Positions 826 through 53,111 of a stretch of 64,000 nucleotides of DNA are shown here, one piece after another. The stretch lies in contig NC_134842.1 of assembly GCF_965363235.1 (NCBI RefSeq), positions 31,186,958-31,250,957 of the forward strand, given 5' to 3'. This stretch comes from Mytilus galloprovincialis. Taxonomy: Eukaryota > Mollusca > Bivalvia > Mytilida > Mytilidae. The translations under genes were made by a program, and so were the position numbers. Numbering within the stretch: position 1 is the first letter of the stretch; each line of letters begins with the position of its first letter. The notes under the pieces are model-generated. The model did not search any database and had not been told where the DNA came from. It saw nothing but the letters and a program-made list of their open reading frames with translations.

Positions 826-1155
826 TTCCAATCACAAATGTCAATTTAAGAGTTATTCCATATGATAAAAACCCGATAGAAATTTTATCCGGTTCAATAC
901 AAAAGTTTCAATGCACAACTAATGCCGGTCGGCCATCGTCCAGGATAGAGTGGTATATATCTGGTGCCAACATAACCGAAGAAGCTTCTGTTAAGACTGA
1001 TCAATGTAATCCTGGATGTAATGAAACAGTGATATCGTCAAGTATTCTAAAATATACTGGTAACATCACAGACATTGGGAAGACAATTTATTGCATAGCT
1101 GAAAATGTGAAGGAGCAAAGTGTCAGATCACAAGACAGAAGAATAGATATTTTGT
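826..1155 (+). CDS. IgR1 exon: Ig domain type A
   Basis: Acceptor TTTTCAG, donor T|GTATGT, 330 nt, phase 1-1. The same length is found in IgR2 and IgR3. The B-strand cysteine lies in FQCTT and the F-strand cysteine in IYCIAEN. An extra close pair, CNPGC, sits between them and probably forms a local disulfide. The segment GRPSSRIEWY supplies the core tryptophan. Confidence 0.88.
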
Positions 1156-4100
1156 GTATGTAGACATAATTTCAGACGAGCGAGTAAACGATTTAAATAT
1201 AAGCTGAACTTTTTAATCACATACAATTATAAAGGAGAAATTAAGCTTCTCATTTATCAAAATTATTTATATATCAATTGAAATTATTCTTGAAAATTGA
1301 GAGGTTAAAGTTTCTTGAATATTTTATATTTATTTAGGTCAGAATAAATATTTTTTAAAAATGTAATGAAAATTAAACAATCAAAATCAAAGTGTAAGTT
1401 CCCTCTCAAATATTGTACAGATTATACTAGTTTTAAAACCAAATATTTAGAAACTCGAATCCCACACACTATGATGTTGACCTTAAGTGCTCGTAAGTTA
1501 CGAAGTGAAAAAGAGGCGATTGATATGATTATGTATTTCTTTGGTACCATCATTATAAATGCTTGACGTAATTTAGAATTTTGATAGAATGTTCAAACAC
1601 TATGATGTTCAGTTCTTAGGGTTTGAAGCTGGTATAAGAATGACAAGCAGATAAAAATCATAATTAGCAGTACAAACTGAGATATGTTTGTATTAGGTTG
1701 ATATTATTTTCCCAAAAGTAATGATTTACGGACTTTATATTCTCGATTTTTTTACCGTGAAAACTACATGAACGTGTTAGTTTGCATATCCGACAGGGCA
1801 TTGTACATGTGAACTGTATACTTTGTGTTGTTCCGGATTACTAAACCCGTTTTTAAATGATGAGATTTAACTTTATTTCTGCCCATATTTGAGTATATAA
1901 TATTCAAAAGATAATAACAATGCAACTTATTTTTATCCATCAAATACCCAAGAAAGACGATTTCAGCAACCATAACATGTATAGGTTATCCCCGCGGCCT
2001 TCAACAATTATCAACACATGTATCGCGTTTCAGGAAAATGTTCATTTACATTTTATTCTTGTTACTTAAGTATTACAGTAAAAAATATCATCAATTTCAA
2101 AGTCTCATTTGACGTTCTTGTAGATCCACCTGTATACCAGACTACAACATCACAGAAGGGAGCATTTTATTCATAACCACTTCTATTGATGCTAATCCTC
2201 ATCCAATATCTGTTTGGTGGACTCGTCAAAATGATCCCAGTTTCAAATATAGTGGTATGAATCTTACAATCAGCAACATAAAGAAAAATTTCAACGATTA
2301 CTACAAATGTAATGCAATGAATACCATTACCATTCCAAGCCAACCAACCCAGAACAAAACAACAGAAGAATTATTCAAAGTGAATGTACTATGTAAGTAA
2401 AATTCTTCGATAACATAAAAACATGTATGTTGATATATATAATAGCATTGTATTTATATGTTGTTTTTAGTTGGATTGATATGATAAATTTCTAAGGGGG
2501 TTGTTGTGAAAGAATTTGGTAATTGTTTTTTTTTTAATTTGGTAATTTTAATCTGGATTAAATATGTTAAATTCAAAATGCCTTTAAGTCTGAGGGAAGA
2601 TAAGGGTCAAATAATTTGAATTTATAAGTCTATACAAACGACCATTCAGAAAATGAATTAGGTAACAGATTATCTAAATTATCTGAAATAGGTATTATTA
2701 CCCAAACGTGACAAATAGGAAAATATTATAAAAGTCTGAATAACTGTGCAAATAATCTGCATCAAGTAAGTGAAATACTACTAAGAAGTAATAAAACCAT
2801 AAAGACAAATAATTGTCTTATGAAACAATCCCTACTAATGATGCAATAACCTGTGCAAAAAAGCTAATTTCAAACATACATGTAAACACCTATCGTATAG
2901 CATTTGATAAAAAGAAAACTAAAGAAGAGGGTGAATTTATTTAGTTTCAAGCGTGTCTGATGCTTTTTGCAAGAAAATACTGTCTTTGAACGTGAACTGA
3001 TAACATAATTTTTAATAGGAATGTACGAGAATGGTGGTAAAATCATAACAAAAAAGTTCCTACACTCTTATATTATATAAACTAGTGTAAACGCCGAATA
3101 ACAAAATGTCCCCCTACAAATGGCTATTCATTTAGTTGTTATAGAACTATTGACGACCAAGAGCATAATTCAACGAATCAAGCATTGTATTTGAATTTAG
3201 GCAATAGTATTGGGCCAATCTTCAAACGTTATGAATTCAAGATTACCAAAAAATAAACCCGGAGGAAATGGAATGAACTACAAACTCAGCCGGAATAGGC
3301 GTGTTCTCTGGTAAATCGTCTCAGTCTGTGTTTTTTTACCAAGAAATATGTCTCATGACCTTCAACTAGGAACTGATATCAAAACTCAACGAATGTACTT
3401 TTTCACAATTATTTTTAATGACATTCTTTACAGTAAAACTAATGTTTGTAAAAATTTTAGAAATATTTATATTTACATTTTGACGACCCTGTTATACCTT
3501 TTCTTTAAAAGATTTTTTTTGATCTTTTAGAAATCAGCATTATGACGGAAATTTTCATCATCCTTTTTATATAAACACACTCGGGTATTTTGTGCATGAT
3601 AAAGTAGAAACATTAAAATTACCAATTTTACTGCACCAGAATAGCAGTCCGACAATAAAGATCTCTTCAATTATGCTGAAGATTAAAATAATTGAAAATG
3701 AAAAACTGATTGAGCTACTAAAACCTACCAGGATGTTTTTAGGCAAAGTCGGCCAAAGAATTAAAGATCTGCATATAATATATTCCTTTATTTTAGATTA
3801 TTTAGAAAAATTTTAACATCCTATTTTAATCACGCAGTATCCTTAATTTAATGCCAGTTAAAAGTACTGGTTACTGTACTATTGAAACACCGGGACTAAT
3901 GGATAAGCAGCCGATATATGAACCCAGCGATAGAAGTACTCTATGTAACATTAACGGTACCAATATTTCTACACCTGATGTTCAGTTTGATAATAAATGC
4001 CCAAGACCAAAACTTATTTTAAAATCTAAAACTGATTAATCATCGAAGAGCTGATCAAACCAAACAAGACACAAAAGTATAGTCATACTTGGCAAAAAAT

Positions 4101-7100
4101 CAGAGGTTTGCATGAGGGATTCATATTCCTTAATTGAAAATATTTTGAAAAAAGGGTATATGATATATTAGGATTTCCTAGTTCAGCTGTTAATCTTATT
4201 ACTTTATTTCACAGTATATTTCAATGTTTTACTGTATGGAACCTTTACCTTTTCATGTTTTTTTATGATCAATATTAGATCCACCTTCAGTTTATATGGA
4301 ACCTATGTATAGTCCGTTAATTGTGCAAGAAGATCAACAGAACATCAGATTATCCTGTGTGATAGCTGAAGCTAATCCTGTAGATACTATAATGTACCAA
4401 TGGAATTATCCTGCTGGTACCATAAGGAATGGAGTTCTTACCATACCAACTGTCTCAAGAAGGCACAATGGACAATATTACTGTTCTGCTACTAATTCGG
4501 TTGGAACATCAGTTAGAACGGTGAAACAAATAGATGTACATTGTTAGTTTATTAAAACATATTAAGGAGGCTCGAGGGTATAAAAATTTCAGAAAAAAAA
4601 TAAACATTTGTTTTTCATTTCAAATTTTTATTTGTTACCTTTTGTAGTTGTTACTTATCATATGGTACAAAAATCATTCAAAACAAACAATTTTTGTTGG
4701 CCCCAGATGACTTTTAAAATGTATACATCATTGAAAAAGTTCCAAATTATCTCCCTTTGGTGGAAAAATGACATTTTTTGGCTTTAAAATTGAAATATCT
4801 TTTTTAACTCATCGGTGACCTATATTTTTTAATATAATTTCCATATAAGCTGTACTTAAACTAAATTATTGTAAAATTTGAGCGATTTCTGTAATAAATT
4901 TCTTTCTTTTTTTTTCGATATTACCTTTATTTCTCCTATTACTTCAACAGAAAAAAAACACCTTTACAAAAATGTATGCTTCTTTCGAAGGCAGATTGTG
5001 AGCGCAAATGAACGGTGACCCCACTTTTTTATTTTATTTTTCTGTTAACTCTAAGATAAAGTTCATTTATAGAAAAATATAGAGAAATCCTATATAAATG
5101 ATTTAGACCCGCGAACCCCCTTAACTGTAATTTAGTTCCCACTCCAAATTGTTTCATGTATCATATTGTATTGTAATGTACCTGTCGACGTCCATTTCTA
5201 ATAGCTATTTCGAAAGTGTGTTGTATCTTTTTATGAGCTCATTACTATGATAACCACAACGAGAATAGATTTCAACGAGACATTCAATTTTATTAGACAT
5301 GGCTATATGCGATATACAAAATTTTAGCGGGAAGATTGGCTAGCCATCTAGCCGTTTAACACACCATTCGTTCGCATGTATCAAATAGTCTTTGTCTATG
5401 TATGTTGACGATTAATTTTACTGCATTTTATATTTAGTGTGTATATTTTTCCGTTTGTTATCCTCTGATAGTTGAAGTGTTTCCCGTGCTTTTAGTTTGT
5501 AACCCGTATTTGTTCCAGCTTAATCGATTGGTGACTATAAAACAGTGGCATGCGATTGTTTCTTATTTATTTTTCTTTATTTCAATCTTACTTAAAATAC
5601 AACAAGTGTATTTGTATATGCATGAATGTTAGAAGAAAGAAATGATGATTAAGAAATGCAATTACCATTAAATATCAAAGAAAAACATTTCAGATGCACC
5701 TGTGATTTCTGGCATTCAAGAATATAATGTTGATGCTGGCAGAACATTTAATGTTTCTCCAACAGTAGATTCTCATCCACCCCTTACATCTATATGGTGG
5801 ACTCGTCAAAATGATATCAAATTCATTTACTATGGATGGAATCTTACAATCAGTCACATTCAAGAAAAGGACAGTGATAACTATACATGTCATGTGATGA
5901 ACACTTTAACACCATCTGGGTTGTCTGCACGGAACAGAACTTCAATAAAAGTTTTCAACATTAATGTTCAGAGTAAGTAAATAATTATGATGTACAAGAA
6001 GGAAAATGTTTACAATGTCTGTCTTTTAAACTTTACTCAATAATGGTCTCTTCGACAATTCAATTACATCCTAACTTACCATTATGTTTTATGAATAACA
6101 ATACTGCATTATGTATAGACATACATTAAACTCACAGAGTAAATAATTTCATTCGTCCCTTGATTGTCCTTATACTGAAAACAAATTATTCGTGGAATGT
6201 TGGATTTAAACATAAGATGTATATCATTCCCCAAAAACTTAACTTACACTAAAAATGATAAATAGAGATCACCATAGGGCCTTTAACAATAAGTAAAACC
6301 CATATAACATAGGCTGGCAGTAAAGGCCCCGAAATTTTAATAAAAAACAGTTCGAATGTAAACTAAATGCATATTTTATGTATAAAATAATGAACGAAAA
6401 ACAAATCTGTTACACAGCAACACACGACAACCACTAAATTACGGGCTCCTGACTCGGGACCTGCACATACATAATGTAGCGTAGTTAGAAGAGAAAACAG
6501 TGAGCCAGTACAACATAAGAACAACTATAAAAAAACATTTAAAAAGTCTTTACTCAGCAGATGAATACGAATATTTACATATAACAAATAAAGCAAAACG
6601 TTGACATGTTTTTCAATTATTTGGTTTTCCAAATGTTGGTGAGTTTGTGAATCTCATATATCTCTTGAAACTTGAAATTTAAAATACTAACGAAACTAAC
6701 AGGCGTGGATCATATCTTGATCTTTTTCTCTATATTAACATATGCATAGGGTTAACTTGTCTCTAATATAGTTATTATGAAGAATGATTTTAATAACCAT
6801 ATCTGTCTTACTGTGAACAACACAAAGTTATTTGTTCGATACGATTTGTCTGTGTCTCAACTCACTAGCGACATATGTTCCTGTTATATTAGCAGATACT
6901 AGAGTATTTGTCATATCTTTAAATTCTATATCGATTGTCTCATTTTATATCTGTTATTTGATGTTTTAATAACCATGTTCTGATGGCCTATTGTTGGAAT
7001 TTTTAGGTTAACAAGGCATTTTAAAAGAGGGACGAAAGATACCAAAGGGACAGTCAAACTCATAAATCCAAAACAAACTGACAACGCCATGGCTAAAAAT

Positions 7101-10100
7101 GAAAAAGACAAACAGAAAAACAGAAAAACAATAGTACACACGACACAACATAGAAAACTAAAGAATAAACAACACGAACCCCATTTAACTTATTCACTTT
7201 CGATTTTAAACTATTTTATGTTGAGTGCATAAAATCTAGAAGAAATGAAATTATGATCTCAATATCTTTGATGAAGTTTCTTTTCGAAAGGTATTTTTGG
7301 TATCATGCGAATTTATGTTTAAATTTGTAATTTCTGTTCCCCCCCCCAAAAAAAAAAATAAAATTGCAGAATGTAATCTTAAGGTGGTATGGGTGTCTTC
7401 CTCCATCTTGGATTGTAAAAAACAGAGATTCAAAGGTCCAGATTTTCAATCAAGTTAGCAAAATTTGACGCAGGAATGCAGATGTTTAATGTACATTTTC
7501 ATTTAAAAGTACCAATTTATTTGTATCTTATAATCAAGTTAAATTATTTTAGAAATACCAAATGATGACTCAGTAAACAGCGCTGCGATCGGAGTAGGAA
7601 CGGGATTGGCTGTTATCATATTAATATTAGGAGCTGCAAGTGTATTCTTTTTTCTGTATAGAAAACGTCGAATGGCAAAAAGAAAAGGTAAACACAATCG
7701 TACTTTATAAATTGATAAATTTTGAAGTTTTTTGTTGTTGTTTTTTTTTGTTGGTGAAATTAGAATCTTAAAGTAGCTTATACATTTGATAAATCCCTAA
7801 ATGAGAAAATGGATAGTGGTATAAATTTCGTAAGAATTACAATATGACGAAAGTATAGAATATAACACTATCAAAGTAATTCGAAAACACCACAATATAT
7901 ATAGTCCTGGTGACAGCTAAAAGTACAAGATAGCTCGAATAGACACCGAACATTTAACTTTTTTTCAACCCATTCCTGTCCGTTAGACGTCCGTTCTTTG
8001 TACCAATGTGTAGACAGTGGTTTTAAAGAATAAAATTTTTCTTATCCGTTAGATGTCCGTTCATCGTTCGCCTTATCCGTCGACGTCCGTTCTGTCCGTA
8101 GGATTTGTTTTAGCATGATCATATCTTTAAACACTTCCAACGGATGATGTGTCCATTGCACGTCCGGTACGAGTCTTTTTTTTTTATAGTACTCATTCGT
8201 TCAGTTTCCGTTTTGTAACCGTTACTTGTCCGTTATACATTCCTTTTCTACCCCTACTCCTTTGATAGCGTTATGATGAATAAACCAAAACCAGTTACAC
8301 GGTAACTATTAATCATTTTAAGGTCACTTGTATTTGATTTACATATATAATGTTTGACGCCTTTAATTTTCGCTTATCTTGTTCATCCGTTTTATCCGGT
8401 ACTCTTCTGTTAGGTGCCGTGGGACATTCGTTTTTCGTACGCAACATATCCTGTGTGTGTCCATTGACATTCGTTACGCGTCTGTTTTTATTAGGTCAGT
8501 ACATCAACGCACTCATAACGGATACACAATTTGTCAACGAAAACATTTTTTCTTCATCCTATCGACGTCCGTTTGAGCGTTTTGATAAGGTGTGACCAGA
8601 CCTTATGTTCTCATGCAGGATTAAAATTAATGATACATACCTTTGATGGTCACCTTACATGAATTGGCTGAACGACACGATGTATCTTCTTCTTAACATG
8701 GTTCCGTTGCATTTACGCTGGTGTTTTCTTGATACTAAAATATTAATCAGATGTATAAATTCACAGATTGTGTCATATTGCGTCATTGGTGATCATTTCA
8801 TAAAGCATTATTGTGAATTTTTTATTGATATAAAAAGATTTGGTGCTGTATACAATTCCAAGGAATAAATAAAGATAAATAAAGAGCTGCTGAACCAACG
8901 CCTCTTATGTTTTGTGCTGGTAGAGTTCCCTTAAGTGGATACCAGATGGTATGCAAGGAATGTATAACTTAATAATCGAACGCGGAATAAATTGTACTCT
9001 TCTTATAAGAATTTGTTTATTGCTGTTGCACATCGATTTGCGACTTGAAATCACACAAAAAGAAAGCGGTTAACTTGCCTATGAAACTCGTTCCTTTTGT
9101 TTTAATATTTTGTAGATGTTTTTAAGGCATTTGTTGTCGCGATCAGAAGATATTAGTAAGACATCAAAAAAGTCATTCTTAAAGGAAAAATGGTATTAAA
9201 TCAGGACACAAAGACCCTTGGCAAATCATCAGAAAAGGAATTGAGTTTTTATTTTTGTCAATAATGTTAAAACCAAAGCGAGATATCAAACCAAAATTGT
9301 AAGAGACAAAGGAATCGAACAATTTTCGTAATATACTATACGAATATCTCATTTAAGAATACACATTTATACGAAAACAAAGACAACATTTAGATTAAGA
9401 CATCTACATACCATGTCACAAAAACTGCTATGTAATTTGAACGGTTGTTATTATGAATATCTCTAAATGGCAATAATTAATAACTATTCTTTCAGAAAAC
9501 AGCAACAGCAAAGTATATGAATCAGAATTCGACAAACCCAGGTAAATAAACATTTTAATCCCGGAATAGACCAAATCATTAGCTTTACTATGCTGACTTG
9601 GAGTATGAACAATGTTTAACAGGAATGATTTTGGTATCAAAAAAGAATTATCAAATTGTGTCTGAATGTCATAAATTCTGTCTGCACACTAACATGTTAA
9701 TAGTTCTTTTCCGCAATGGTCTAAATCCTCTTGAATTTAATTATCATTTACAAAAGTTGTGTCTCAACACATTTCTTACAATATGGAAACTGAAAAAAAT
9801 CTCTACACATTTTCAAATTTTCATAAAAATCTTATACAAGGTCATTTATTGTCCATTGCAAAACGCTTAATAGTGTTAGTATGATCAAGTATGATGCTAT
9901 AGCAAAAGTCAACATCTAAAATGTTAAAAAAAAATCAACTAGACCTAAATTTCAATATTTCATGATATGTATTGGCAAGAATTCATCCTACCAACCAGCT
10001 TATATTGAATATATAGGGGATAAAAAGTCACCAATGCACTTGAAACCTTTTATGTGGCAACTTAGAATATGCTAAAACCTTTGTGCTGATAACTTTACGG

Positions 10101-13100
10101 TTTCACAAGCGTTGTGATAAGTAGTAACGTTCAGATTTAAAAGAAGATCATGACTTTAGGATCTGCTTAAAATTCACATTGAACACCCGAAAGTTTTTCT
10201 TGGGCCATGAGTTGCCCAGTCGTTTTTTTTTCTGTGTTTTTTTTGTGTATTTTTTTGCTATGGCATTATTAGTTTGTTTTTGACTCATGCCATATTTGAT
10301 ATGAGACGTTGCATATTTATTAAACATAATGAAATAACTAAGCTGTAGACTTGTGTATTTAATGTATGCTGCATTTTATATGCATGTTAATCAAGCCATG
10401 AAAATATAAAACCTCTTTATATATTTAAGGGGTTTTGATTTCCGATATTGTTGTATATAGTCTTATTTGAGTGTTCTTTTTTACGTTTGTATTGATCTAA
10501 TACATGTAATTATTTAAGATACACGAAAGAAGTCGTGTTATTATTATAGATTATAAAATTGAGAATGGAAATGGGGGAATGTATCAAAGAGACAACAAAC
10601 CGACCATAGAAAAAACAACAGCGGAAGGTCACCAACAGGTCTTCAATGTAACGAGAAATTCCCGCACCCGGAGGTGTCCTTCAGCTGGCCCCTAAACAAA
10701 TATATACTAGTTCAGTGATAATGAACGCCATACTAATTTCCAAATTGTACACAAGAAACTAAAATGTATGTTTGTCTAAATGGGATGCATTTTCTCATTC
10801 TCATCTGATATAAAAACGGCGTAACCTTGAGATTAGATAAGAATTAGAAAATGCATCGAGTTTAAAAAAACAAAACAAATAATCTATGTATCCCAATTTT
10901 GTGTATTTTCGAATAACATTTAGGTCAAATTATAGTAAAAAATTTTATCTAGTACGATTAAAATGCATCTTCTTTTTTGTTACTATTTTTTCATGCAGGC
11001 TTATTAAAACAATATAATGATCAACGACTTGAATCCATTTAAAAAAAATGCGTTTGAACTAATCAGCCTGTGTGTTTTTTACATTGCAAACACTAACAAT
11101 ACATACAAACAGACAGACACGTGTGTAGCAGATTTATGTAAAAATGGATACTTATTATTTTGTGTTTACGTGTAGTTTTTTTTTTATAGTTCCAGCTATT
11201 TTTGTTCTCTGGTTGGTCATTAATCTAGCGCTTGGATATTGATAAATACGCTGTTACGGGGGACTATAGAAGGTAGCGATGATTTACATTTTCAAGCGAG
11301 TCGGGAGAGAAGAAAAATAACACATAAGAAGATCAAAGAAAAAATAAACATTATAGCGATATTAAAGTGAAATTGATTGACATGTCAAATGCTTTTCTGT
11401 TTTATGGTTTACAGACAAACGTCCGGAGTAGACAATCATTTGTATAATGAACTGCAAGATCTAAAATCAGGTCAGTGCAAACATTATCTAATATTTAAAT
11501 GTATTGTAGCTTAAATAACTTTTTCGTGAATAAAACCAAAATGATGTACATTTAGTCTTTTTTTTTAACCATTTCACAGTTATCTTCAACTTTGTACTTT
11601 GTTGGGCCTTTAATATTTTTCTTGTAAACATACCTTAGAGTGTTTCTTAGACGAAATGTTTTTTTTCAGCCAGCTGGTACCTTTGAATATGCTTTTTGGA
11701 TGACATCACAAAAAAAAAAAACGTAAGAAAGAAAAAGAATGTTATCATAAACGATAAGTCTGCTGAACAAACACTTTGGCGATAGAAATGTCTAGAAAGT
11801 AAAAAAACATCATAGCAAAAAATTATTTAATTCGCCTCGTACTGCAATCTTGGAAAGATGTAGTTTTTCTTTCAATGATATCAGATCTGATCTAGAAAAA
11901 AAACTGAAATGTATGTACCTTTTTATTTATATAAACGATACACATGACAAATATTCATAAATACAAGCCGATTTATCAATTTACAGATGGTAAACAGCAG
12001 AACAAAAGTTCAGAAAGATGGTAAGTAGTGTTTTCATCTTATCTCAAACAAATATATTCTGTTCACAGTTAACGATCAAGTCATGGGAGGCGTTATGTTA
12101 GCTAAGCTACATTTGTTCATATTTGATTCCTCTTTAACAATTTCTTTATGAAAAAGTAAAATCACAAAAATACTGAACTCAGAAGAAACTTCAAAAATTG
12201 AAGTCCCTAATCAAATGGCACAATCAAAAGCTCAAACACATCAAACGAATGGATAACAACTGTCGGATTCTTGACTTGGTACAGGCATTTTTAATGTAGA
12301 AAAGGGTGGATTGAACATTGTTTTAAAGCTGCATTTGTATGAGAGTCGCATCAAATTGCAATGCATTGACAACTATGCATGTGAGCAAAGGCTCCGTGAT
12401 GAAGACCGTACTTTGACCTATAATAGTTTACGTTTATATAGTTGTGACTTGGAAGGAGAAATGTCTAATTGGCTCTCATACCGCATCTTCTAATATATAT
12501 TCAAACAAACTCACTATTAAAAAATGTTTCTCATTAAATATACAAGAGGGACATGCAAAATCAACTTAATGAGTGTCATAACTGTTTCTCTGCAGCTCGA
12601 ACACTTACGAAGAATTTGGAGAAGTCAAGAGCAGTGCGAATGATAATATTTACGAAAACCTGAAAATATCAACAAACGGTAGGTAGCATGTTCTTAAATG
12701 TTATTACATATTAGGGTTTTCAGCATTTTAAAACATTCTTTGACATAACAGCTGATGTGTAAATAATTAAATAACATTAATCATACCTCTCGTTAGAAAG
12801 AGGTGTACCAATCTGTCCGTATTTCCAGCGTTCCTTCTTCCTTTCGTTTCTTCATCTGTCTGTCCAGTAATTTTTTTTCAGGATCTTTGTTAGGATCTAC
12901 CAAGACCGTCCTGAATTTGTATATACTTGATATGAATATGCAAACTGATGCTTTTTCTTATTATGTCATCACATTCCTGTTAACAACTACGTATAGTGAT
13001 GCCATGATTTGTATACAGTAGATTTCTGTACATATAAATCAATTGCAGATATTTTTGATACATTTGAACTAATAATTGCCTGATCCGACAACACAAATTA

Positions 13101-40344: not shown

Positions 40345-40405
40345 ATGACTGCTTATTTATGGAGGATTACAGTATATTTCCTCACGGTCGAGGGATTTAC
40401 GTCAG
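40345..40405 (+). CDS. IgR3 exon 1: start codon and signal peptide
   Basis: ATG at 40345, leader MTAYLWRITVYFLTVEGFTS, donor G|GTATTA in phase 1. It joins in frame to the type D exon exactly as in IgR2. The hydrophobic core is shorter than in IgR2. Confidence 0.8.
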
Positions 40406-43400
40406 GTATTATACATGTTATATTTTCATTCTTATTTTTGTATTTGAAAATCAATCAATATTTTCAGAAAAAGAGATGTTAAATTATCATTCTTTGAGCA
40501 TTATGTAAAATTGACTGACATTCAGGCTGTAAGGAATATATCTGCTGTGTACTGCTTTCATATGTTTTAAAGATATGTTCTTCAGCAATAAGTATGACAT
40601 ACCTATATATGGTTCGTATGTGAAATCTCTTACCTGTTTCTTCGATTCATTTTAGTATATACTTAAACTACACATAGGTATTATCTGGTATAGTTCTGAT
40701 TGGATGAGCCCCATTGCCGTCTAGGTTTAATAGATAAGATTTGCTAGTTTTTCAAAACATTCTGCCCTAAACACCAGAAAAAGGTTTAAAGGTTTAAGGT
40801 ATAACAACACTAATTCATAGCCCCATTGCTTTCTATGTTAAATTCTGAAATTTCATGCAGAAATGGTTACTTTGTCTTAATTTCAAATAAAGTAATAGTG
40901 GCAGTTAGTTCATGTCAAAACTATACCTTATCCTGACTTGTGTTAAAACTTCCAACACACCTTTAATTGCAGATTAAAGCGTACTGTTTTCCAAAAGTTT
41001 GATAGTAGAAAACAGGTACTTCTGATCTGAACAACATGACAAATGGTCCCTCCTATTATAGTTTTATACTTGTTTAGTAATCAAAAGAAACTTTCAGCAA
41101 GGGTTCTACAGTGATTCCAAGTCTCAAAGCTTTTATTTGATACCAAAACTACTCAAATATGTAACCTATTGACAAAGAAACAGCTATGTGTAGGAACTAT
41201 TAGTTTGAAATATGTACTATTGTCTTGTATGTTCTTTTCGACCGTGCCCGGATAAGTGGTTCTATACCTATAACAGCACTAAACTTTAAAAATTTATCTC
41301 TCCTTTACTTAATTTTCTTCTCAATGTATGATCTATTTCTAGCATAGACAAATGCATACAGCAATTTTCAAAACACTTAATCACCGAATTCAAGCTCTAA
41401 TTAGACTGGTAGTAACATATGTCTGATACATGTACAAAGAAAACTCAATATGGATACTGATAGTGACAGATATGATACCTTTAAAAATTTTACCAGATCT
41501 TATTTTTTAATAAACATGTATCGACCCAAATTACAATGTTCTTATCTTATGGTTGTGGTTTGTTATCTATTTCTTGCATGAATAGATATTTCTCGTATCA
41601 CACTGCACGAAGTGTAAAAAGACTAGATCAAGAATTTCTAATTTAACACAATGAGAGTGTAGACCATAAAATAAATAGGTTTAACTAGTAAGAATTAAAC
41701 ATCACTTGATACCAACTCTCGTTATCTAATTTAGATAGTAATAATAAACTCTTCGAAGTCTCGTTTATTATTACTTTGAAATTAAATATCTTGAGTTGAC
41801 GTAAAGCGATATCCCATGCTTATAAAGATCAATTATGATAATATGGATTTTAATTTGTCAAACCTTTTTCTTTAATTCAAGGATGTATTTATCGGGTGAG
41901 CAAAAAGGTGGCCATTCCTATTTCAATTTCATTTAAAAAAAAATATGCAATAAGTGATTTACCGTTGGATTTTTGTACAATGAATCTGTGCAATGTTTTA
42001 TTTTAGCCTTTTTACTGACAACATCTTCTGACAGAGCAACTACCGGAAATGAATTTAATTTTACATGCAATTTAGCAAAAGATGCGAATGGAATTATATC
42101 GATAGTAAGAGATCATACAGATGAATGTATAATAGATGTTGACCAGTCTTGTAGATTCCAAAATTGTAATCCAAACTATGCGTACTCTTGCAACGGAAGT
42201 ACCTTTTACTTGACTATACCAGTAAAATTGGATATAGATAGTTTGCATGGATCTCGCTGGAAATGTCACGATATATTAAGAGACATTAACTCTAATGAGG
42301 TGTTGTTGTATGTCAATGGTAAGTATAGAAGAATAGATATATTTAGATATGTGGATTTTTTACTCTTTATCGTTTTTATATCTGGATCCATCTGTCTTTA
42401 TTTTGCAGATATTACTTGTTTCGTATATAATTAAAGACTGTATGTTCGATAACATTATTATCCTTACATGTACTGACAATTTTATATTTAACGAATATAT
42501 ACATTTACTTCATATTTTAACTCAATTGATGTTTGAATATTATATATTCATCTGTCTCATGTTAATGCTTTGATCTTTTTACAACCGTAAGGTCGATCCA
42601 ACCGTATGTTTCTCTTAGTACTCAGCAAAACTGTGTAGCATGAACTATTTTTGATGTGTTCCTTTGCTGAAAATCTTCTTTTGATAAAATGTGGAATAAT
42701 TTGTAACACCAGGTTAGAGTTTGACACCGAAGTAATTAACTGTACATTTAGAGATAATCTCGGCAGTCTATTGTATTTCGGATAAAATATATACAACATT
42801 GGAGTTTTATGTGACGTCCATTGGCACTGAACTAGTACACATTTTGTTTGGGGGCTAGCTGCAGCCCGCCTCCGGGTGTGGTATTTTCTCGCTTTGTTGA
42901 AGACCCATTGGTGACCCTCAGCTGCTCTCTGCTCTTTGGTTGGTTTGCTGTATCTATAACACATTCCAGATTTTTATTCTAGATCTTAGCTATATTTTTT
43001 CATAGCTCTTAAATCAAAATAAGTTTTTTTGTGTATAACTTAAGACAACAGAAATGTACTGACGTTCATATAATATAAATCGATTTAGAAGATACAAACC
43101 AAATACATGTTTTGTTTTATTGAAATTGCATGAAGATTAAATATTGCGAGACCGATTGCGTCAACGCAGTCATTTTCTTACAATACGTAAAAGGGCACAA
43201 TAAGTAAAATTTCAATTCAAACGACAATTGGGGTATCTAAATGTATAAAACTGCTAAAAAAGGGTCGATGAAGAGTTAGTACATACATTATGTTCATGCT
43301 TAGTCTACGGAATCATTATGAAGTGCATGTTTTCGTTAAACTGAAATCCCCTAGCCCTAATCTAATTTTATTTGTGTGAAAATCAAAACCAGTTCAAGTG

Positions 43401-46400
43401 ATTTTCAGTATCAGTTTCTCTCAGACAATAGTATTTGACCAATAGAATGATTTGCAGGTGTTCCTGTTGGTGCTCAAAGAGAACCTGACATAGCTTTTGT
43501 TTTCATTTTTTAATAATTACGTTATTTGTTGCGCTTCTATCTAGTTGTTTAGGTTAAAAAAAATCATACAAGGATGCACTTATACATGTACCAGGTATAA
43601 AACCAAAATTAGTCTGGTTATGGGTTGAATTTTGGTTTTGTAATTTCGTCAACGTTTGTATTAAATTTGGACTTTAAATCATTTTAGTAACGATGTTTAT
43701 TGAAGAGATATAACTTGTCGATTTGCGCATCAGCTGGAATAAAAGGGGTACTGTCAATGTTATTGCGTCACCTTTGACCTATGGATATGTTGATAAAAAT
43801 TTGTGCTTGTATATTTTTCAGTTCCAATAACACAAGCAAATTTAACACCAATTCCGTACGATATCAACCCGACGAAAATTATTTCCGGTTCAAGTCAATC
43901 GTTTAAATGTACAACTGATGCTGGTCGGCCGTCGTCCAGGATACAGTGGTATCTCTCTGGCTCCAAAATAAGTGATAATGCATCTGTTCAAACTGACACG
44001 TGTAATTTTGGATGTAATGGAAAAGTGATATCGTCAAGTGTTTTACTATATACTGGTAATACCACCGATAATAAGAAGTCAATTTATTGCTCTGCCGTCA
44101 ACATAAAGGGAGAGGGAGTACAGTCACAATACAGAGTAATTGAGATTCTGTGTATGTATACATTATCTTGAATTTTCTTTTGATATGGCATTGTCAGTTT
44201 GTTTTCTTCGACTTATATGTTTGAATTTCCCCTTTTCCTCTATTTTATTTCTAGAACTTTTGCCTGATTTGTGTAAAAAGTAAAATCACAAAAAAAAACA
44301 AACTCCGAGGAAAATGCAAAACAGAAAGTCCGTTATCAAATAGCAAAATGAAAAGCTCAAACACATCAAACAAAAAGATAACAACTGTCATATTCCAGAC
44401 TTGCAAAGAACGAATACAAACAATGATCGAATACAAACCTGACAAAGAGCGACAAACAACAACCACTAATTACAGGCTCCTGACCCGGACAGGCATACAC
44501 AGAATGTGGCGGGGTTGAACATGTTAGCGAGCGCCCAACTCTCTCCCTAACCTGGGACAGTGGTGTAACAGTACAGCATATGAACAAACTATAAAAAATC
44601 AGTTGATAAGGTCTTAACTCATTAGAACAATAAAAAGATGAAAAACAATAAATAAAAACACAGACCGAACGTGATATATATATAACTGCTAATTATGGTT
44701 AAGTTTCTGCTTTTCGTAATGTGAAGGATGTAGGCACCTGTAATTTAATTGACCTCTCCGATAGGTTTAGAAAAATCCAACCTGAACAAATATGGAACAC
44801 GGACACTATCTAGTATGCTGCAACGTATGCCATTATGTTTATCGAATATAAAAAAAAATCAAAAATTACTCGGGGTTATTTTTATGACTAACTGACCCTT
44901 CAAATACTACATAAAGAAGGATAAAAGGATTAACAAAAATATTTTATTATTGAAACATCTCTAAAAATAATATCTAGTGTGATTTGGACACTTAATGACA
45001 GACACATTATAAATAGAAACAGGCAACATACTACAACCAACAACGGTCGGACACCGAAGAACTAAAACACTAAATTCACAAAATCCAACGAACAATACCT
45101 GGCCTTTTTTGCCAGATTAGCTACAGACACGAATGCTTTAGTACATTAACCATTAACATCTTTGAAATGTTGAAGTACACGGTCAAACGTTTATAAGTGA
45201 TCCTTTCTTCTGGTACCTTGTCAGTCGTAAACAAAAGCAATCAGGATACAAAAAAAGGGGGACGAAAGATACCAAAGGGACAGTCAAACTCATAAATCTG
45301 ACAACGCCATGGCTAAAAATGAAAAAGACAAACAGAAAAACAATAGTACACATGACACAACATAGAAAACTAAAGAATAAACAACACGAACCCCACCAAA
45401 AACTAGGGGTGATCTCAGGTGCTCCGGAAGGGTAAGCAGATCCTGCTCCACATGTGGCACCCGTCGTGTTGCTTATGTGATTACAAATCCGGTAAATAGT
45501 CTTATTCGGTAGTTCACATTCATGAAAGGGAAGGGGATTGTAGTTACGACGTAAGGAACATATCCGATATCATTTGTGAAACGGTTATTCCATAACGGTC
45601 AACCAACTCGTGCTGGCGTCCGTAAAATTTACGAAGGGATGATTTCAACTTCACCATTTGGAACTCTTGGTTTAATAGCTTCCTTGTGAGCAGTAACCCT
45701 CTATCAAGAAAATCATGATAGGAAATGCAAGCAGGGGAATATCGTATCAATTGGGAGATATATACCCCGTATGCAGGTGCTGCTGGAATGTTGCTACATA
45801 GAAATGGAAAGTTCACTATTGGAAAGCTGAAATCATCTCTTTTGTCGTAATGTTTTGTTTTCAACCGACCCTCATTGTCAATTTCTAGATGTAAGTCAAG
45901 ATATGAAGCCGACTTAACTGTATCTGTAGTATCCTTTATCTCCAATTCGATGGGATAGATGCGTTTCACATACAAAGATGCAAGACCAGGAAAAAAGTTA
46001 CAATTGAAGGAAAGAAAATATCATGACCGAGACAAAAAAGATATCCCCCCCCCCCCAAAAAAAAACAAACAAAAAAAACAACAACAACAAAAAACAAAAC
46101 CGGTATTAACACTATATCCAGAAAAATATTGAAGTTTACGAACTGCAAAACAATTTTCAATTGTAAACAATGTGAGATTGTAATTAACAAGAGAATGATT
46201 GGTTTATTAGTAACGTAGCTACAGTCTTTTAAAGCATAAACCGTATGATGAACGTTAACAAAAGTATATTAAATGAACATGCAAACTTTTATAAAAAAAT
46301 GTATTTGGTTTTCATGTTACATTTGTTATTCTCGTGGTGTTTTGTCTGATGATTGGTCTGTTTCTGTGTGTGTTGCGTTTCGATGTTGTGTCGTTGTTCT

Positions 46401-49400
46401 CCTCTTATATTTAATGCGTTTCGCTCGGTTTTGGTTTGTTACCCCGATTTTGTTTTTTGTCCATGGATTTATGAGTTTTGAACAGCGGTATACTACTGTT
46501 GCCTTTATTTATATTCGAGACATTTTGAAATAAATGTAATTTCATCAGTGTATCCTGTTTGAGATAAAAAAAAAAAAAAGAGAAGGTTTTAATGGCGATA
46601 AAAATTGATAACACGAACTGAAGATGACGTGTTATATGTTATATCCTGACTTATAAACAGACTCATTCTTCTATATTCATCTTCATTATTCTGCTATTGT
46701 ATGTTCAACATTTAAACCTAAGTAAAACGTATCAATTCTGTTTGCAACTTTCAAACATTTATTATATGCACCATTTTAGAAATGTTGTACCATTAAACAT
46801 GTTTTATAATTACCGATTTGGAAATTCATATTTAAAGTTGAACCAGTGATCTTAAACATACCAGATATCAATATAACAGAAGGAAGTAGTCTGAAAATAA
46901 CCGCTACCTTTTATGCTAATCCAACCTCTGTATACGTATGGTGGACACGTCAAAATGATACTGCCTTTAGATATTATGGTACAACCTTATTTATCAGAAA
47001 TATACTTAGATATTCCAGTGGTAACTACACCTGTCATGCTATGAACACTCTTACAGCATCAGGACATCTCCCACAGAACAGGACATCAAAGGAAACATTT
47101 TATGTCAATGTACAATGTAAGTGAAAATGTACAAAAAAACTAGATTTACATACTTGTTCGATATGTATTTGAGTTCATAGTAAGAATGTTTATTAACATA
47201 AAAAAGAAGATTTGTTTTGTTATCCGAACATGATTTCCGATAGTTATATTGTTAAGTACAATTTTGTCCTACAAGTAATGTACTTTCATTGGCTAAGGTT
47301 TTGTTAAAATAATCTAAAACATTGTAATTGATATGATGATTGTCACAAGGTAGGTGTTGATTTAATAATAAAGACTTTTTATCAAATCCTGCCATGCTGT
47401 TAAAGTAATTTTTCAAAGCTTAAATTAAACGCATGTAATATAAACTAGTGCTTATAATTCAGTTAAATTTTTCCGATGATAAATAAAGAAAACATTTTAA
47501 ACAAAAGAAAAACAAACTTCGGTCATCTTCAAGCAGACAAATTTTGAACTTATATAAGGAAGTTTATAAACAAATAGCTTTCAGTTGTTATAATTATAAT
47601 AAAAAATCTATGAAATTGTTACATATATGTTGACTTAAATTTGATTATAATAAGGGGAGAGAATCTCAGTGTATGTTATCTTAAAAGGAATGACACAATG
47701 TCATTGGACGAAGTATAATTGATTTTTTCTTAATGTAGTGTCACCGAATGATGAATCAATTAATGGGACTGCAATTGGTGTAGGAACAGGATTTGCTGTA
47801 ATCGTATTTACATTAGGCGTCACCAGTTTATTTGTGTTGATGCACCGTAAGCGTCGAATGTTCAAGAAAAGAGGTACAGATATAAGATTATTTAACGGCC
47901 ATTATTTATACAACGTATAATTTATAATCTAATAACTGTAGCTTACTTTGTTTATAAATACGTCTTTTTGGTTCGCTCATGAGATGTATGAGATTTGAAC
48001 AACGGTAAACTACAGTTGACTATACTTGGACAAAACACAATGCAAATTTAAAAAAAAAAAATCAACAAATGTTTTTGCAAAATCATTGAGCCCATCAATA
48101 TATTGTTAAGAACACTAGAAATGTGTTTTACATTATTGTAAATATTTTTTTTTTCTTTTTCTTCAGAAGACAGCAACAACATTGTATATGAATCAACATT
48201 TGTTGAGCTAAGGTAAATAAATGTTGGTTTTTTTCTCTCCGAATACATGAATGCTTTTGGGAAAAAAAACCAAATATCAATTAATACTAAGAATAAATAA
48301 AACAAAATCACCTTCCTGTATTTTTCTGTTTTATCAAAATAAGATCCAACATTAAAATAAGGAGATAATGTATGATTGCCAACGAAACAACTATCCATTT
48401 CACAAAATAATTACAGTTCACCCTGTAGTCTTAAACAGTTTTAAAAAAAGGGCTATGCATCTAAAGATAGGCGAAATATGCCAAAAGGACATTAACACTA
48501 ATAAGTAGAAAATAAACTGATAATGACATGGCTAAAAAAGAAAAGGCCAACAGACAAACAATAGTACACAAAACACAACATGGAAACTAAAGACTGAGCA
48601 ACACGAGTTAAACTTCACAAGACACTGATATGAAAAGATGACACAGTTCGAAAGACCAACACTCTGTACAATTATATAAACGTTACTTATTCTCGGTTTG
48701 GTATAGGCATAAAACGAATTTGGCGGTGTTAACCAGTTAACCGTGTAAAAAATGGATATGATCGAAAATAAACTGAGAATGTCATGGCAAAATGAAAAAA
48801 AGATCAAAGACAAGCAGTATACAAAACACAACATAGAAAACCAAAAAGATTGAGCATCCGGGCCCCACCAACAACCGGTGGTGATCTTATGTGCCGAAAG
48901 GGTAAGAGGATCCGCCTCCACATGGAACAACCATCGTTTTACTCATGACAAACTGTATTTGTATTTTCACTGAAAGGAGAACATGGAACATGATATCTTG
49001 CATTTAAATTGCCACTTTAGGTATAAGACATCAAATATGTTGGCGGTAAGAATGGTTGAAACATGAATTGCTATGAAATACATGTATTCAAAGGATCGAC
49101 ATATGATGCATGTTTTAATTACCAAAGTATGCCTTTGTTTTAAAATTTACAGACAAACGGCGCAATCGGACCAGCATTTGTATAATGCGTTACAAGATTA
49201 TAAAACAGGCGAGTGTATAATTGGTAGAATATTGTATAGACTGTATAGCTTGTGTATGTCTTTTTTGCACCTGAATGATCAAATTCTGACCAAATACATT
49301 TATAAACTGCACGAACAAAAGTGAGAAAATAATTGGAACTGTAAACGTTTAAGATTGTGGATAAAACAAGATAACATTTTAGAACGTAGCTTATTTTACA

Positions 49401-52400
49401 CATTGAGGATATCATTGCACTGTCAATAAAGATATTGTTGTTACCAACATGAACAGCATCACCAATAGCTGCATGGTGACTCATTCATATATTTAGTCAA
49501 ATATAGCATGTGTACTTTTATGCCATTCTCACAACTTTACACAGAAAAAATCAACAATATCGTTGGATCTGAAGAATTTTATAGAAAAAGCTATGCAACA
49601 AAAATATTAAAAAAATATAGATCTACACAGCGATAGGTCACCATGCTGCCTTCAACAACAATAACATTACCCTGAGTTTCCTTTCTTTTTAGAAAGTTTT
49701 CAAAAACTTGAGTAGTTCAAGCATCAATAAAATATATGAGGAATTTAGACTCACCCCTTTTTATAAGTATGAACAGGTTTATATGTTGTTGTATTACTTT
49801 TTAAAAGAAGCAAACATCTATCAAGAAAATCATGATATAAAACACAAGCTCTAGAATATCGTATTGAGATATATACTTCTTATGGAGCAGATACTGGTAT
49901 ATAACTTCATAGACGCGGAAAGTTTACAATTTTAAAGGGTCATTTATCTCGTTTGTCGTAAACATTAATTTTCATCAAACCTCATATATCTTGATCTAAA
50001 TGAACATGTATTGTTGTCAACACAAATTGTGCATTTCAAACATTCAACTGCTTCGAACTGACTTTTTTTCAGATGATGATTATCAGCAAAATAGAGCGAG
50101 CAAAAGGTATATTAGTAAGTAAGAAAGAGCGTAAAAGAAACAAGTGGTCGATCAGATACTGTTATTCCCAAGAAATAGATAACATCGCGACAAAAAAGTA
50201 AACAAAAATCAATGAAACGAAAAGCAATAGTACTAAATAGCAAACTGAATACTGAATATAAATATAGTAACAAAAACGGGGAGTGAACTCAGTACTCCGA
50301 ATTGATAGGCAATTAATGATACCTATCGTTATGCTCATCGCAAGTTCAAATCGGTGAGTATTTTAATTCGTTGATACCACATTCGGTATAAGAGTCGACA
50401 GTTACATTACTACGACAAGGGATCATACGTGCATGATATTCAGTGTCACACAAAAATAACGAGTCATCTAACCATTATGACGATAGAACTTATTCAAATG
50501 TACCATTTAGAACCACTGGTTGGTTTGGTTCCTTTTAAAACAACTGTAGAAAATACAAAGAGAAATATTTAACTAAAACAATGCAGACAACAACACGAAG
50601 CATCACGAACGCTACCTAAAAACTGAGAGTGAGCCAAATTGCCCTAAGAGGTTAAACATGCATTATCTTCTAGACGTGTCAACCGTCATGTTACATGTAT
50701 GATTATATCCTCTTTTTGTTTTCATTAATTTGATAAGTAAAATGATGTATGCGATGAAAAAAGGGTTGCCGTTTCGACAACCTGTTCTTTGACTACACAA
50801 TCCACCAGTATCAACCAAATATTGTAAAACTATTAAAAGAATGATTTTTCATTTTCAGTCCTTTGTGAATTACCCCCTCAACCCGGTCCCCTTTCTCAAC
50901 AACACTCATCTATCAGGAAATCAGTATTCATATTAGACACGCTAGCCCTTGTTTATCGCGTAAATTTGGGGATAAACTCTTAAAAATGTAGACGTAGCTG
51001 GAAAATTGCTATGCAGAAACTGAGTTCACAAGGCAAAAACAATTAGATGAATTGTATCGCTAATTTTCAAAACTAAAATGTCTCTACTGTATTTGTTATT
51101 CAGTTTTCTTTGATAGGTGCGATCAACAGGAGTGTTGAATGACTCATGAAAGTTTTCATTATAATTTGTTTCAACGACTTTGAAGCCTTCGGCTATTCGA
51201 AAAGATATTGTATGATTTACTTTCCCCGTTTTGTCTATTAATTTGTCTGTTGTGTGGCATTATCCTCGACTAAGTCAGTTGGTGGATATTTTACCGCCTG
51301 TTTTTATGTTTTTTTGTGGAATCTTGAAAGTAGACTTGGCAGATAAATATTAAAGAATTTTGCAAAATTCTGAAGACTTGGCCTTTTTTGTTCCGATTTT
51401 CATCCACAAAATAACGAAACACTTACATGTAATAGTAAGACTAGTAGGTTTGCTTCATATGTTGATATTTTTCTTGAAACGAAAAACATGGAAGACGTCG
51501 AAATTATGTCTTTGACGAAATTGCTGATTTAAGCTTTGCCATTTTCGACTACCAGTTATCCTATTGGTTGGTGGATACTCATCCAAATTGATATATAAGG
51601 TTCGTGCATGATCACATTATATGGACGTCATAAAAAAGTACTGTTCCATTCATAAAAAACTGCTCAAACAGGTTAATGATTAAGAATCACTGCTGATCGA
51701 CAATGGTTCAGCTAATGAGCCATTACCGGTAGTTAACCGATACAATATTTGTGTGTCTCAACTAACTAGCTACATGTGTTTTTTTTTTGTACATTTTGTA
51801 CAAAAACATAGTCGTTTGATCTGTAAATTATTAATTTTAATATATAGCTTATTATGTACTTAAGTATGTGATTAGAAGTGTAACACATACTAAGTAAAAG
51901 AGGCCTATCCGGTCGACACACTCGGTTTCGTTACTTTTTTAGTTCAATCGATTTTCTCAGGTTTTACTGATTTTACCTTACTTTGTATGTGATTATGGAA
52001 CATCAGTTAACGACTGGTGTCTCTGTTTATTAATAAATAGAATATTGTTTTACAGTTATTTGTCATTATGTTTTTTTTTTCTGCAGCTCAAGCACGTATG
52101 TAGAACTTGGTGAAGTAAAGAGCAACAACACTGTATATGCTAACAAAACTATGAATAATGCAGCCGGTAAGAAATGAAAACAACACGTTATATAAATTAC
52201 ATGCTTCCCAAGCATTTTTCTGGGATTTTCGTCAGAAACGCTCAAAGCTTTATAATTGAAAAGGCTAGGGTTTATAAGAACCGAAACAATTGAAGAGCTT
52301 TATGACAAAAAATAACCTAATAAAATACCCAAATCCTTCTAATGCCATTTTTGCCTGTGGGAGTGGAAACCTCAGTTTCTTTATAATTTCAAAATTTATA

Positions 52401-53111
52401 AACGAACAATTTTTAGAAAGGATGAATCATGTCAGTACCGAAGTACTGACTACTGAGATGATGATATCCTCGGAAACTGATAGTCCATCAGAAGAGGTAC
52501 CGACCCAGTGATGAAAAAAAATGAAAATAATACGTTATATAAATTTCATGCGTCCGAACCGCTTTTCTGGATTTACCTTCATCAGGAACGCTCAAAGCCA
52601 AATATTTGAAAACCTAGGATTTAAGACTACGGGTGTCGTTTTGAAATACGATAATTTTAAAGAATGATCATATTTTCATAAAATTTACACTAGTTTTGGC
52701 AAAGACGTTGGCGTCTTACATTAACACTTTTCTTTGAATAAAACCGACACAAATACCTAATGCATTAAGATAGGTAATAATACTCAGTAATCTAGCATAC
52801 AAACAAGAAAAAAAAGCAAAAAAGTGATAGTGATATATCAATCTTTTAGAAATAAGTTAAATTGAAACATTTTGCAATGATCAAAATTATTCACAATAAC
52901 CGACTTTTATTTTATTCAACTAAATTTGCTTTAAAAACAAAGTTATATCTTATGGAGGACATCCGTACAACTTTAATTTATTGCATTTTACAAAAAGGCA
53001 GTTTTGAAAAAGTTGATATTATTACGAACGTTTATTTCAGAATTGCATAGGAAAGACATGGACACGGATCTATATGTCAACACAGAATTAAAACCGTCAA
53101 TGAAAACCTAA
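40345..53111 (+). CDS. IgR3: IgSF transmembrane receptor with tyrosine-rich tail, 10 exons
   Basis: Apparently complete paralogue of IgR1 and IgR2. Coding exons: 40345-40405, 42007-42318, 43822-44151, 46838-47116, 47739-47873, 48167-48212, 49153-49208, 50073-50106, 52087-52166 and 53041-53111 (stop TAA). They total 1404 nt, 467 residues. Residues about 1-20 are a signal peptide, 21-124 a six-cysteine Ig-like domain, 125-234 Ig A, 235-327 Ig B, 328-372 stalk plus TM plus HRKRR, and 373-467 the tail. The tail carries VYEST, LYNAL, QDYKT, DDYQQ, STYVEL, VYANK and LYVNTEL. STYVEL fits the ITIM pattern [S/I/V/L]xYxx[L/I/V], and YANK and YVNT fit YxN. One intron uses a GC donor. It is probably a surface receptor with SH2-dependent signalling; ligand and role are not known. 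Confidence 0.86.
40406..42006 (+). other. intron 1 of IgR3
   Basis: AT-rich; no repeat or exon recognised. It is far shorter than intron 1 of IgR2, which carries the Penelope-like insertion. Confidence 0.5.
42007..42318 (+). CDS. IgR3 exon 2: six-cysteine Ig-like domain (type D)
   Basis: Acceptor ATTTTAG, donor G|GTAAGT, 312 nt, phase 1-1. Starts FLLTTSSDRATTG. Cysteines lie in FNFTCN, DECII, QSCRF, QNCNP, YSCNG and RWKCHD; the closing pattern is HGSRWKC, then SNEVLLYVN. The flanks agree with IgR2 but the middle of the domain differs strongly. Confidence 0.86.
42800..42990 (+). repeat. tail fragment of Penelope-like element (family R1), plus orientation
   Basis: CACTGAACTAGTACACATTT, CCTCCGGGTGTGGTATTTTC and GAAGACCCATTGGTGACCCT match the reverse complement of 18595-18760. 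It accounts for the minus-strand ORF at 42557-42964. Confidence 0.65.
43822..44151 (+). CDS. IgR3 exon 3: Ig domain type A
   Basis: Acceptor TTTTTCAG, donor T|GTATGT, 330 nt, phase 1-1. B-strand FKCTTDAGRPSSRIQW, extra pair CNFGC, F-strand IYCSAVN, end VQSQYRVIEIL. Confidence 0.88.
44170..44650. repeat. cluster of dispersed repeat fragments in IgR3 intron
   Basis: 44175-44235 is a short R2 tail in opposite orientation (GATATGGCATTGTCAGTTTG). 44270-44650 carries AAAAGCTCAAACACATCAAA, ACAGGCTCCTGACCCGGACA, GTGGCGGGGTTGAACATGTT and ACCTGGGACAGTGGTGTAAC, shared with 12150, 6290 and 53750. The ORFs 44251-44466 and 44366-44587 are repeat DNA. Confidence 0.55.
45250..45980 (-). mobile_element. reverse-transcriptase element fragment, family R2
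   Basis: Lies in the IgR3 intron between Ig A and Ig B, antisense to the gene. The minus-strand ORF 45544-45975 is the C-terminal part of an RT-type polyprotein: SYLDLHLEI, YDKRDDFSFPIVNFP, YGVYISQLIRY, LTRKLLNQ, then KFYGR. The rest down to 45250 is the non-coding tail seen elsewhere as R2 fragments. Motifs resemble the corresponding part of the Penelope-like element at 19.4-19.8 kb, so it is probably a related Penelope-like family. The catalytic core is absent (5' truncated). Confidence 0.7.
45981..46100. repeat. low-complexity C-run and A-rich tract
   Basis: A run of C followed by A-rich CAA repeats near 46045-46100. The minus-strand ORF here is an artefact of the tract. Confidence 0.7.
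46310..46525 (-). repeat. dispersed repeat, family R3
   Basis: Read in reverse it matches 21998-22200: TTTGTCCATGGATTTATGAG, GAACAGCGGTATACTACTGT. A better-preserved copy than that at 22.0 kb. It explains both ORFs in this place. Confidence 0.6.
46838..47116 (+). CDS. IgR3 exon 4: Ig domain type B
   Basis: Acceptor ATTTAAAG (weak pyrimidine tract), donor T|GTAAGT, 279 nt, phase 1-1. Core YVWWTRQNDTAFRYYG, F-strand GNYTCHAMNT. The B strand (LKITATFYANP) has no cysteine. Confidence 0.87.
47117..47738 (+). other. intron of IgR3
   Basis: AT-rich; nothing recognised. Confidence 0.5.
47739..47873 (+). CDS. IgR3 exon 5: transmembrane segment
   Basis: Acceptor TAATGTAG, donor G|GTACAG, 135 nt, phase 1-1. 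Helix GVGTGFAVIVFTLGVTSLFV, then HRKRRMFKKRG. Confidence 0.87.
48167..48212 (+). CDS. IgR3 exon 6: cytoplasmic 1
   Basis: 46 nt, acceptor TTCTTCAG after a long T-rich tract, donor AG|GTAAAT, phase 1 in and 2 out. Contains NNIVYESTF. Confidence 0.85.
48355..48960 (-). repeat. three repeat fragments in IgR3 intron
   Basis: 48355-48400 belongs to the GATGTGGTATGATTGCC family. 48455-48610 and 48750-48960 are two successive degraded R2 tails (GACATGGCTAAAAAAGAAAA; CACAACATAGAAAACC, GGGTAAGAGGATCCGCCTCC). They account for the long minus-strand ORFs here. Confidence 0.55.
49153..49208 (+). CDS. IgR3 exon 7: cytoplasmic 2, YNAL motif, GC donor
   Basis: 56 nt, acceptor TTTACAG, donor CAG|GCGAGT, phase 2 in and 1 out. 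Encodes DQHLYNALQDYKT. Both paralogues have GT at this donor. The conserved exon length and intact frame argue for a GC-AG intron, not for a broken exon; the rest of the donor is a strong match. Confidence 0.82.
49810..49995 (-). repeat. degraded RT-element fragment, family R2
   Basis: CTATCAAGAAAATCATGATA and GCGGAAAGTTTACAATTT match the RT region at 45710-45890 with many changes. Confidence 0.5.
50073..50106 (+). CDS. IgR3 exon 8: cytoplasmic 3 (micro-exon)
   Basis: 34 nt, acceptor TTTTTTTCAG, donor AG|GTATAT, phase 1 in and 2 out. Encodes DDDYQQNRASK; gains a tyrosine absent from the paralogues. Confidence 0.82.
50240..51125 (-). repeat. strongly degraded R2-like sequence
   Basis: Scattered matches to the R2 element, for example CATCTATCAGGAAATCAGTA, GTAGCTGGAAAATTGCTATG and AACCACTGGTTGGTTTGG. 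Probably one or more old copies; boundaries uncertain. Confidence 0.35.
52087..52166 (+). CDS. IgR3 exon 9: cytoplasmic 4, ITIM-like STYVEL
   Basis: 80 nt, acceptor TCTGCAG, donor G|GTAAGA, phase 2 in and 1 out. Tyrosines in STYVELGEV and TVYANKTM. One codon shorter than in the paralogues. Confidence 0.86.
52175..52640 (+). repeat. two head-to-tail repeat copies in last intron of IgR3
   Basis: The block from ACGTTATATAAATTACATGC (52182) is followed by a second partial start at 52533 (ACGTTATATAAATTTCATGC), both with CAGAAACGCTCAAAG-type continuations. The ORF 52290-52511 lies inside the first copy. A dispersed element of unknown class. Confidence 0.55.
53041..53111 (+). CDS. IgR3 exon 10: last, YVNT motif and stop
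   Basis: Acceptor TTATTTCAG, 71 nt to TAA. Encodes TDLYVNTELKPS. Length and C-terminal residues match the last exon of IgR1. Confidence 0.86.

Follow-up and report, generated by a model that had tools for sequence, protein, structure and literature searches.

Vertebrate receptor families such as CD22/SIGLEC and KIR/LILR are encoded in tandem clusters, combine immunoglobulin (Ig) domains with tyrosine-containing tails and come in activating and inhibitory kinds. In bivalves, the 'BCR-like' receptor of the oyster Crassostrea gigas is known as CgIgR. A 2025 review describes another oyster protein, CgIgIT2, as bearing an immunoreceptor tyrosine-based activation motif (ITAM) (PMC11999971); the same text is inconsistent on this point in that its own reference list holds a title calling CgIgIT2 inhibitory, and it cites by title two papers on inhibitory receptors and one on an 'ancient BCR-like' receptor. 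In invertebrates including molluscs, Syk has been linked with the CARD-CC/Bcl10/MALT1 module and conserved upstream ITAM receptors have been inferred (PMC5978004). Here we describe a cluster of four tandem genes, denoted Z, A, B and C, of the immunoglobulin superfamily (IgSF) in the mussel Mytilus galloprovincialis. The analysis is centered on a window of 64,000 nucleotides (nt) (contig NC_134842.1, C5 below; C5:31186958-31250957) of the 1.385-Gb genome, with gene Z located outside it; exon positions without a contig prefix are window positions. In line with a Mytilus origin, a 60-residue query made of the decapeptide of mussel foot protein 1 is matched at all 60 residues within an open frame of 770 codons at C4:52.62 Mb. 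No description of this mussel family was found in the open-access text of the literature searched.

On the evidence of gene structure, a common plan, conserved tyrosines and a predicted V-type fold, this is a real tandem group of predicted phosphotyrosine-type IgSF receptor genes. The combination of an Ig ectodomain, a transmembrane helix with a basic stop-transfer run and a multi-tyrosine tail that an earlier, sequence-only reading of the window had proposed for related tandem receptor genes is supported by the sequence. With confidence slightly above even, we propose that all four genes encode single-pass surface recognition receptors that would signal through phosphotyrosine and SH2 docking and that are probably immune.

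The exons were located by comparison of the window with itself and then refined at splice sites. Genes B and C, both on the plus strand, consist of ten exons each, namely those for the signal peptide, a V-like domain, two further Ig domains (Ig2 and Ig3), the transmembrane segment and five portions of the tail (c1 to c5). The signal peptides are predicted from hydrophobicity, phase and donor only. Gene B, with a predicted product of 463 amino acids (aa), includes the signal-peptide exon (70 nt, 18455..18524), the V-like exon (303 nt, 25617..25919; also V alignment), Ig2 (330 nt, 27251..27580; also genome search), Ig3 (279 nt, 28488..28766), the transmembrane exon (138 nt, 29203..29340), c1 (46 nt, 30764..30809), c2 (56 nt, 32478..32533; YNEL), c3 (34 nt, 34624..34657; splice-site refinement), c4 (83 nt, 34925..35007; YEDV-x11-YDNL) and c5 with the stop codon (53 nt, 35362..35414; YVNL). 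Gene C encodes a predicted protein of 467 aa, that is, a 447-aa model extended by a signal-peptide exon read by eye (61 nt, 40345..40405; ATG, hydrophobic stretch, phase 1 and GT donor). It continues with the V-like exon (312 nt, 42007..42318; also predicted fold), Ig2 (330 nt, 43822..44151; also genome search), Ig3 (279 nt, 46838..47116; also predicted fold), the transmembrane exon (135 nt, 47739..47873), c1 (46 nt, 48167..48212), c2 (56 nt, 49153..49208; YNAL), c3 (34 nt, 50073..50106; splice-site refinement), c4 (80 nt, 52087..52166; STYVEL, which fits the consensus of the immunoreceptor tyrosine-based inhibitory motif, ITIM, in a motif scan) and c5 with the stop codon (71 nt, 53041..53111; YVNT). 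The intron phases are the same in both genes (1,1,1,1,1,2,1,2,1), with phase 1 throughout the ectodomain and transmembrane part and 2,1,2,1 in the tail. The exons have AG/GT borders, the sole exception being the GC donor of c2 in C; the GC-AG intron behind this exon is at window position 49209, where A and B have GT. Between B and C, the conserved lengths of 330, 279, 46, 56 and 34 nt and the identical phases noted in the sequence-only reading hold, and its protein lengths of 463 and 467 residues were reproduced.

Gene Z, to the left of the window, was not used in defining this plan and nevertheless contains tail exons with the same lengths of 46, 56 and 34 nt. A scan of 183.9 kb, in which A, B and C match themselves, gave c1 of Z a score of 31 against 18 for the next best of 280 candidates and c2 one of 29 against 14 for the next best of 220, whereas c3 is unremarkable by score and was chosen by length, phase and splice sites. 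Because the plan is repeated in this independent gene, chance alignment of short exons can be ruled out. The tail as a whole comprises about 100 residues spread over the five short exons, and five tyrosines are invariant in Z, A, B and C. A phmmer search of the tail of Z against PDB gave no match at E <= 10. The Ig3-type exons in Z comprise nine intact ones of phase 1 and two that have decayed (C5:31154041-31165014), among which Z_I3/I4, I6/I7 and I8/I9 resemble three copies of a two-exon unit, with one exon type lacking and the other containing the F-strand cysteine.

Gene A is truncated by the window edge, and its V exon lies approximately 6 kb to the left of the window (C5:31180805-31181113). 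Within the window, also on the plus strand, it starts with Ig2 (330 nt, 826..1155), which has AG/GT borders and 64% aa identity to the exon of C. There follow an out-of-frame Ig3-type exon (269 nt, 2124..2392) that shows a 62% match to Ig3 of B but is incompatible in frame with phase 1, an extra I-set exon, Ig4 (264 nt, 4279..4542), and an Ig3-type exon (279 nt, 5694..5972) identified by the window self-comparison and splice sites. The remaining exons were defined by splice-site refinement: the transmembrane exon with RKRR (135 nt, 7553..7687), c1 (46 nt, 9496..9541), c2 (56 nt, 11415..11470; YNEL), c3 (34 nt, 11987..12020), c4 (83 nt, 12596..12678; YEEF-x11-YENL) and c5 with the stop codon (13938..14008; YVNL). 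The 269-nt exon is probably decayed or skipped, and gene A forms an open chain once it is omitted. No counterpart of Ig4 was found in B or C; since two relatives on C6, a separate 103-Mb contig, carry one, in the order V-Ig2-Ig4-Ig3, B and C may have lost this exon. The suggestion that the three genes in the window align exon by exon therefore stands for B and C throughout and for the tail exons of A, which align one to one with those of B and C, but not for the ectodomain of A, with its V exon outside the window, its extra Ig exon and its frameshifted 269-nt exon.

The assignment to the immunoglobulin superfamily follows from Pfam matches above the cut-off to Ig_3, I-set and C2-set_2 in B and C, where positions are given for the best stretch per family; no V-set model exceeded the cut-off in either protein, and no FN3 family was found at E <= 1. 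The N-terminal domain is nevertheless predicted to fold like the V domain of an antibody or T-cell receptor: the AlphaFold2 model for the seven V exons has a pLDDT of 87 and a pTM of 0.80, and Foldseek retrieved antibody-complex chains and T-cell receptor V domains, with 19 matches at E <= 1e-3 and TMq of 0.54-0.70 among the 50 matches listed. Four cysteines and the W of a WxC motif are invariant in the seven V domains. Of 15 Ig3-type domains examined, 14 lack the B-strand cysteine as judged by eye, including Z_I4, in which a cysteine is shifted by one position; the F-strand cysteine is retained in 10 of the 15. An Ig fold is still predicted for the Ig3-type domain (pLDDT 94), and the fold matches listed include IgLON, FGFR, DIP/Dpr and SIRP-alpha. 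Each predicted receptor has one transmembrane helix without charged residues.

Divergence was estimated by NG86 for twelve exon pairs of A, B and C only, with the transmembrane exon included in the tail comparisons. Nonsynonymous divergence (dN) is below synonymous divergence (dS) in all twelve, with dS of 0.64-2.03, which indicates that the copies are old and their reading frames constrained; recent duplication was rejected on the same dS values. The dN/dS ratio is 0.42-0.58 for the V exon, 0.28-0.39 for Ig2, 0.20-0.30 for Ig3 and 0.25-0.50 for the transmembrane segment plus tail. The V exon is the least conserved of the Ig exons, the copies of the V domain being 40-46% identical.

From these features we infer ligand binding by the V domain, signaling through SH2 proteins and a role in immunity. 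The V domain would bind a microbial, self or allogeneic ligand, receptor clustering would lead to phosphorylation of the tail by a Src-family kinase, SH2 proteins would dock at the YxxL/I and YxN sites, and the signal would be relayed inward, the cell most likely being a hemocyte. The copies may differ in sign, exon c4 containing an ITAM consensus in Z and an ITIM consensus in C. The known preferences of SH2 domains include paired or single YxxL for the Syk and SHP types, YxN for the Grb2 type and YEEI for the Src type. Several observations weigh against this proposal. The strict ITAM, Yxx[LI]x6-12Yxx[LI], is present in only one of the four tails (Z, exon c4) and its tighter x6-8 form in none, although a relaxed form allowing V or F is found in Z, A and B, but not in C. 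The strict ITIM, [SIVL]xYxx[ILV], is likewise confined to one tail (C, exon c4), where it is weak evidence because 932 of 5000 shuffles of this tail also yield a match. The YxN counts do not exceed those of shuffles in Z, A and C (747, 522 and 657 of 5000, respectively; 46 of 5000 in B). The tails of B and C, at 42% identity and dN/dS of 0.50, are as divergent as the V domains, and the ectodomain finds its best matches in molecules of neural adhesion such as DSCAM, CADM4 and IgLON, which fit adhesion as well as immunity. Given that the strict ITIM and the strict ITAM each occur in one of four tails, the tail is, by its motifs, of a YxxL/YxN type rather than a CD22/SIGLEC type.

The adhesion matches raise the possibility, which we consider doubtful but not negligible, that these genes serve neural or developmental adhesion, either homophilic or heterophilic, as molecules similar to DSCAM, IgLON or SYG, with tail tyrosines that would recruit adaptors for cytoskeletal rather than immune signaling. 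The Ig2/Ig3 part does have DSCAM, CADM4, SYG-2 and IgLON among its highest-ranking sequence or fold matches, but these span generic I-set/C2 domains, FN3 domains are not listed for B or C, and the 40-46% identity of the V domains, together with the varying number of Ig exons and the decayed exons, appears unusual for conserved neural molecules. The similarity to CD22 or SIGLEC that the sequence-only reading had perceived was not supported by comparison. An inhibitory sialic-acid receptor of this kind would share V and C2-type Ig domains, a transmembrane segment and a tyrosine tail with the mussel proteins, and CD22 is among the weaker PDB matches; the best match of the whole gene C protein, however, is DSCAM (E 2.6e-9), with the first CD22 entry in ninth place out of 45 (1.8e-4). 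In SIGLEC/CD22, the arginine that binds sialic acid is conserved in the V domain. The columns that are invariant across the seven mussel V domains contain no arginine; this test, made by alignment, is still compatible with one copy having an arginine that binds. With this result and the ITIM in one of four tails, SIGLEC membership was rejected, and we regard this reading as highly improbable.

The cluster could also be partly dead: some copies, A above all, would be chimeric models or pseudogenes, leaving just one or two functional genes. The frameshifted exon of A and the two decayed Ig3-type exons of Z point in this direction, but in A the nine remaining exons within the window have open frames, matching phases and splice sites, every tail tyrosine is retained, dN is below dS, and the faulty exon can be skipped because it is flanked by phase-1 borders on both sides; partial decay of this kind seems unlikely to us. 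A far-reaching version of the proposal of immune-type recognition receptors, which we consider speculative and rather improbable, is that the cluster is an independently evolved molluscan counterpart of the KIR/LILR paired receptors, in which c4, a single duplicated tail exon, would be tuned to ITAM in Z and to ITIM in C, the ectodomains would diversify as phase-1 Ig exons are gained or lost, the nine-exon array of Z could be open to alternative splicing, and the Syk-CARD/Bcl10/MALT1 pathway of molluscs would receive the signals of the receptors.

Counting of neighboring copies revealed one additional gene, Z, to the left of the window, and no further family match in about 30 kb downstream or in 52 kb upstream of Z. 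The suggestion that the family may be much larger outside the window is partly borne out: the C5 cluster comprises four genes, and genome-wide there are at least 31 related Ig2 exons at E <= 2.2e-8, of which C6 holds 27. Fourteen of the Ig2 matches at this threshold fall within C6:21.3-21.8 Mb. At C6:21402186-21409914, Ig2-type exons recur every 2.3-2.7 kb, four in 10 kb, and no convincing V, Ig3 or open transmembrane exon was found beside them in these 10 kb. For the C6 genes at 22.56, 22.73 and 23.04 Mb, transmembrane exons were not found in the stretches searched; TYEECG exons near 22.56 and 23.04 Mb can be assigned to the respective genes only through their position. When the c4 tail exon was searched against the whole genome, only A and Z were recovered at E <= 10, whereas B, C and the copies on C6 escaped detection; the search is therefore no measure of rarity. 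In a tree of 13 Ig2 domains, the four C5 genes do not separate from five C6 domains as a single clade, and a single local radiation is therefore not supported.

The window also contains several repetitive or putative mobile sequences. Broken open reading frames on the minus strand between or inside the genes (19234-21684 and 45544-46020) contain a YLDD motif and are presumably reverse-transcriptase-like; a Pfam scan of four reading frames found nothing at E <= 0.01. At six or more sites, again between or inside the genes, there are copies of a dispersed element, typically about 150 bp and up to 440 bp long, with 77-89% identity (7022-7183, 17309-17457, 27837-28273, 31813-31947, 45253-45688 and 48478-48606). 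A perfect 53-bp tandem duplication lies between B and C (36504-36608), and the stretch 58605-64000 consists of head-to-tail units of about 2.1 kb, with 95-98% identity, that contain 120- and 145-bp repeats.

This small, well-delimited mussel family with YxxL/YxN tails provides concrete candidates for the predicted receptors upstream of Syk and would show how animals that lack antibodies build and diversify receptor clusters. Like the mussel genes, the oyster CgIgIT, CgIgIT2 and 'BCR-like' receptor are described as bivalve IgSF proteins with several Ig domains, one transmembrane segment and a tyrosine signaling motif, although CgIgIT2 has five Ig domains (PMC11999971) compared to three in mussel B and C. 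The Hydractinia Alr complex, as described in the same review, similarly brings together IgSF genes with V-set and I-set domains, but includes 41 genes (PMC11999971), in contrast to the four of the mussel C5 cluster. The layout of DSCAM, in which Ig domains are followed by FN3 repeats, was not found in mussel B or C, whereas the best PDB sequence match of Ig2-Ig3 and the array of homologous phase-1 Ig exons in Z are reminiscent of DSCAM. Finally, although their tail motifs are mostly not ITIMs and the likeness found to CD22 is confined to the Ig domains, the mussel genes share with vertebrate CD22/SIGLEC and KIR/LILR tandem clustering, Ig domains and tyrosine tails.
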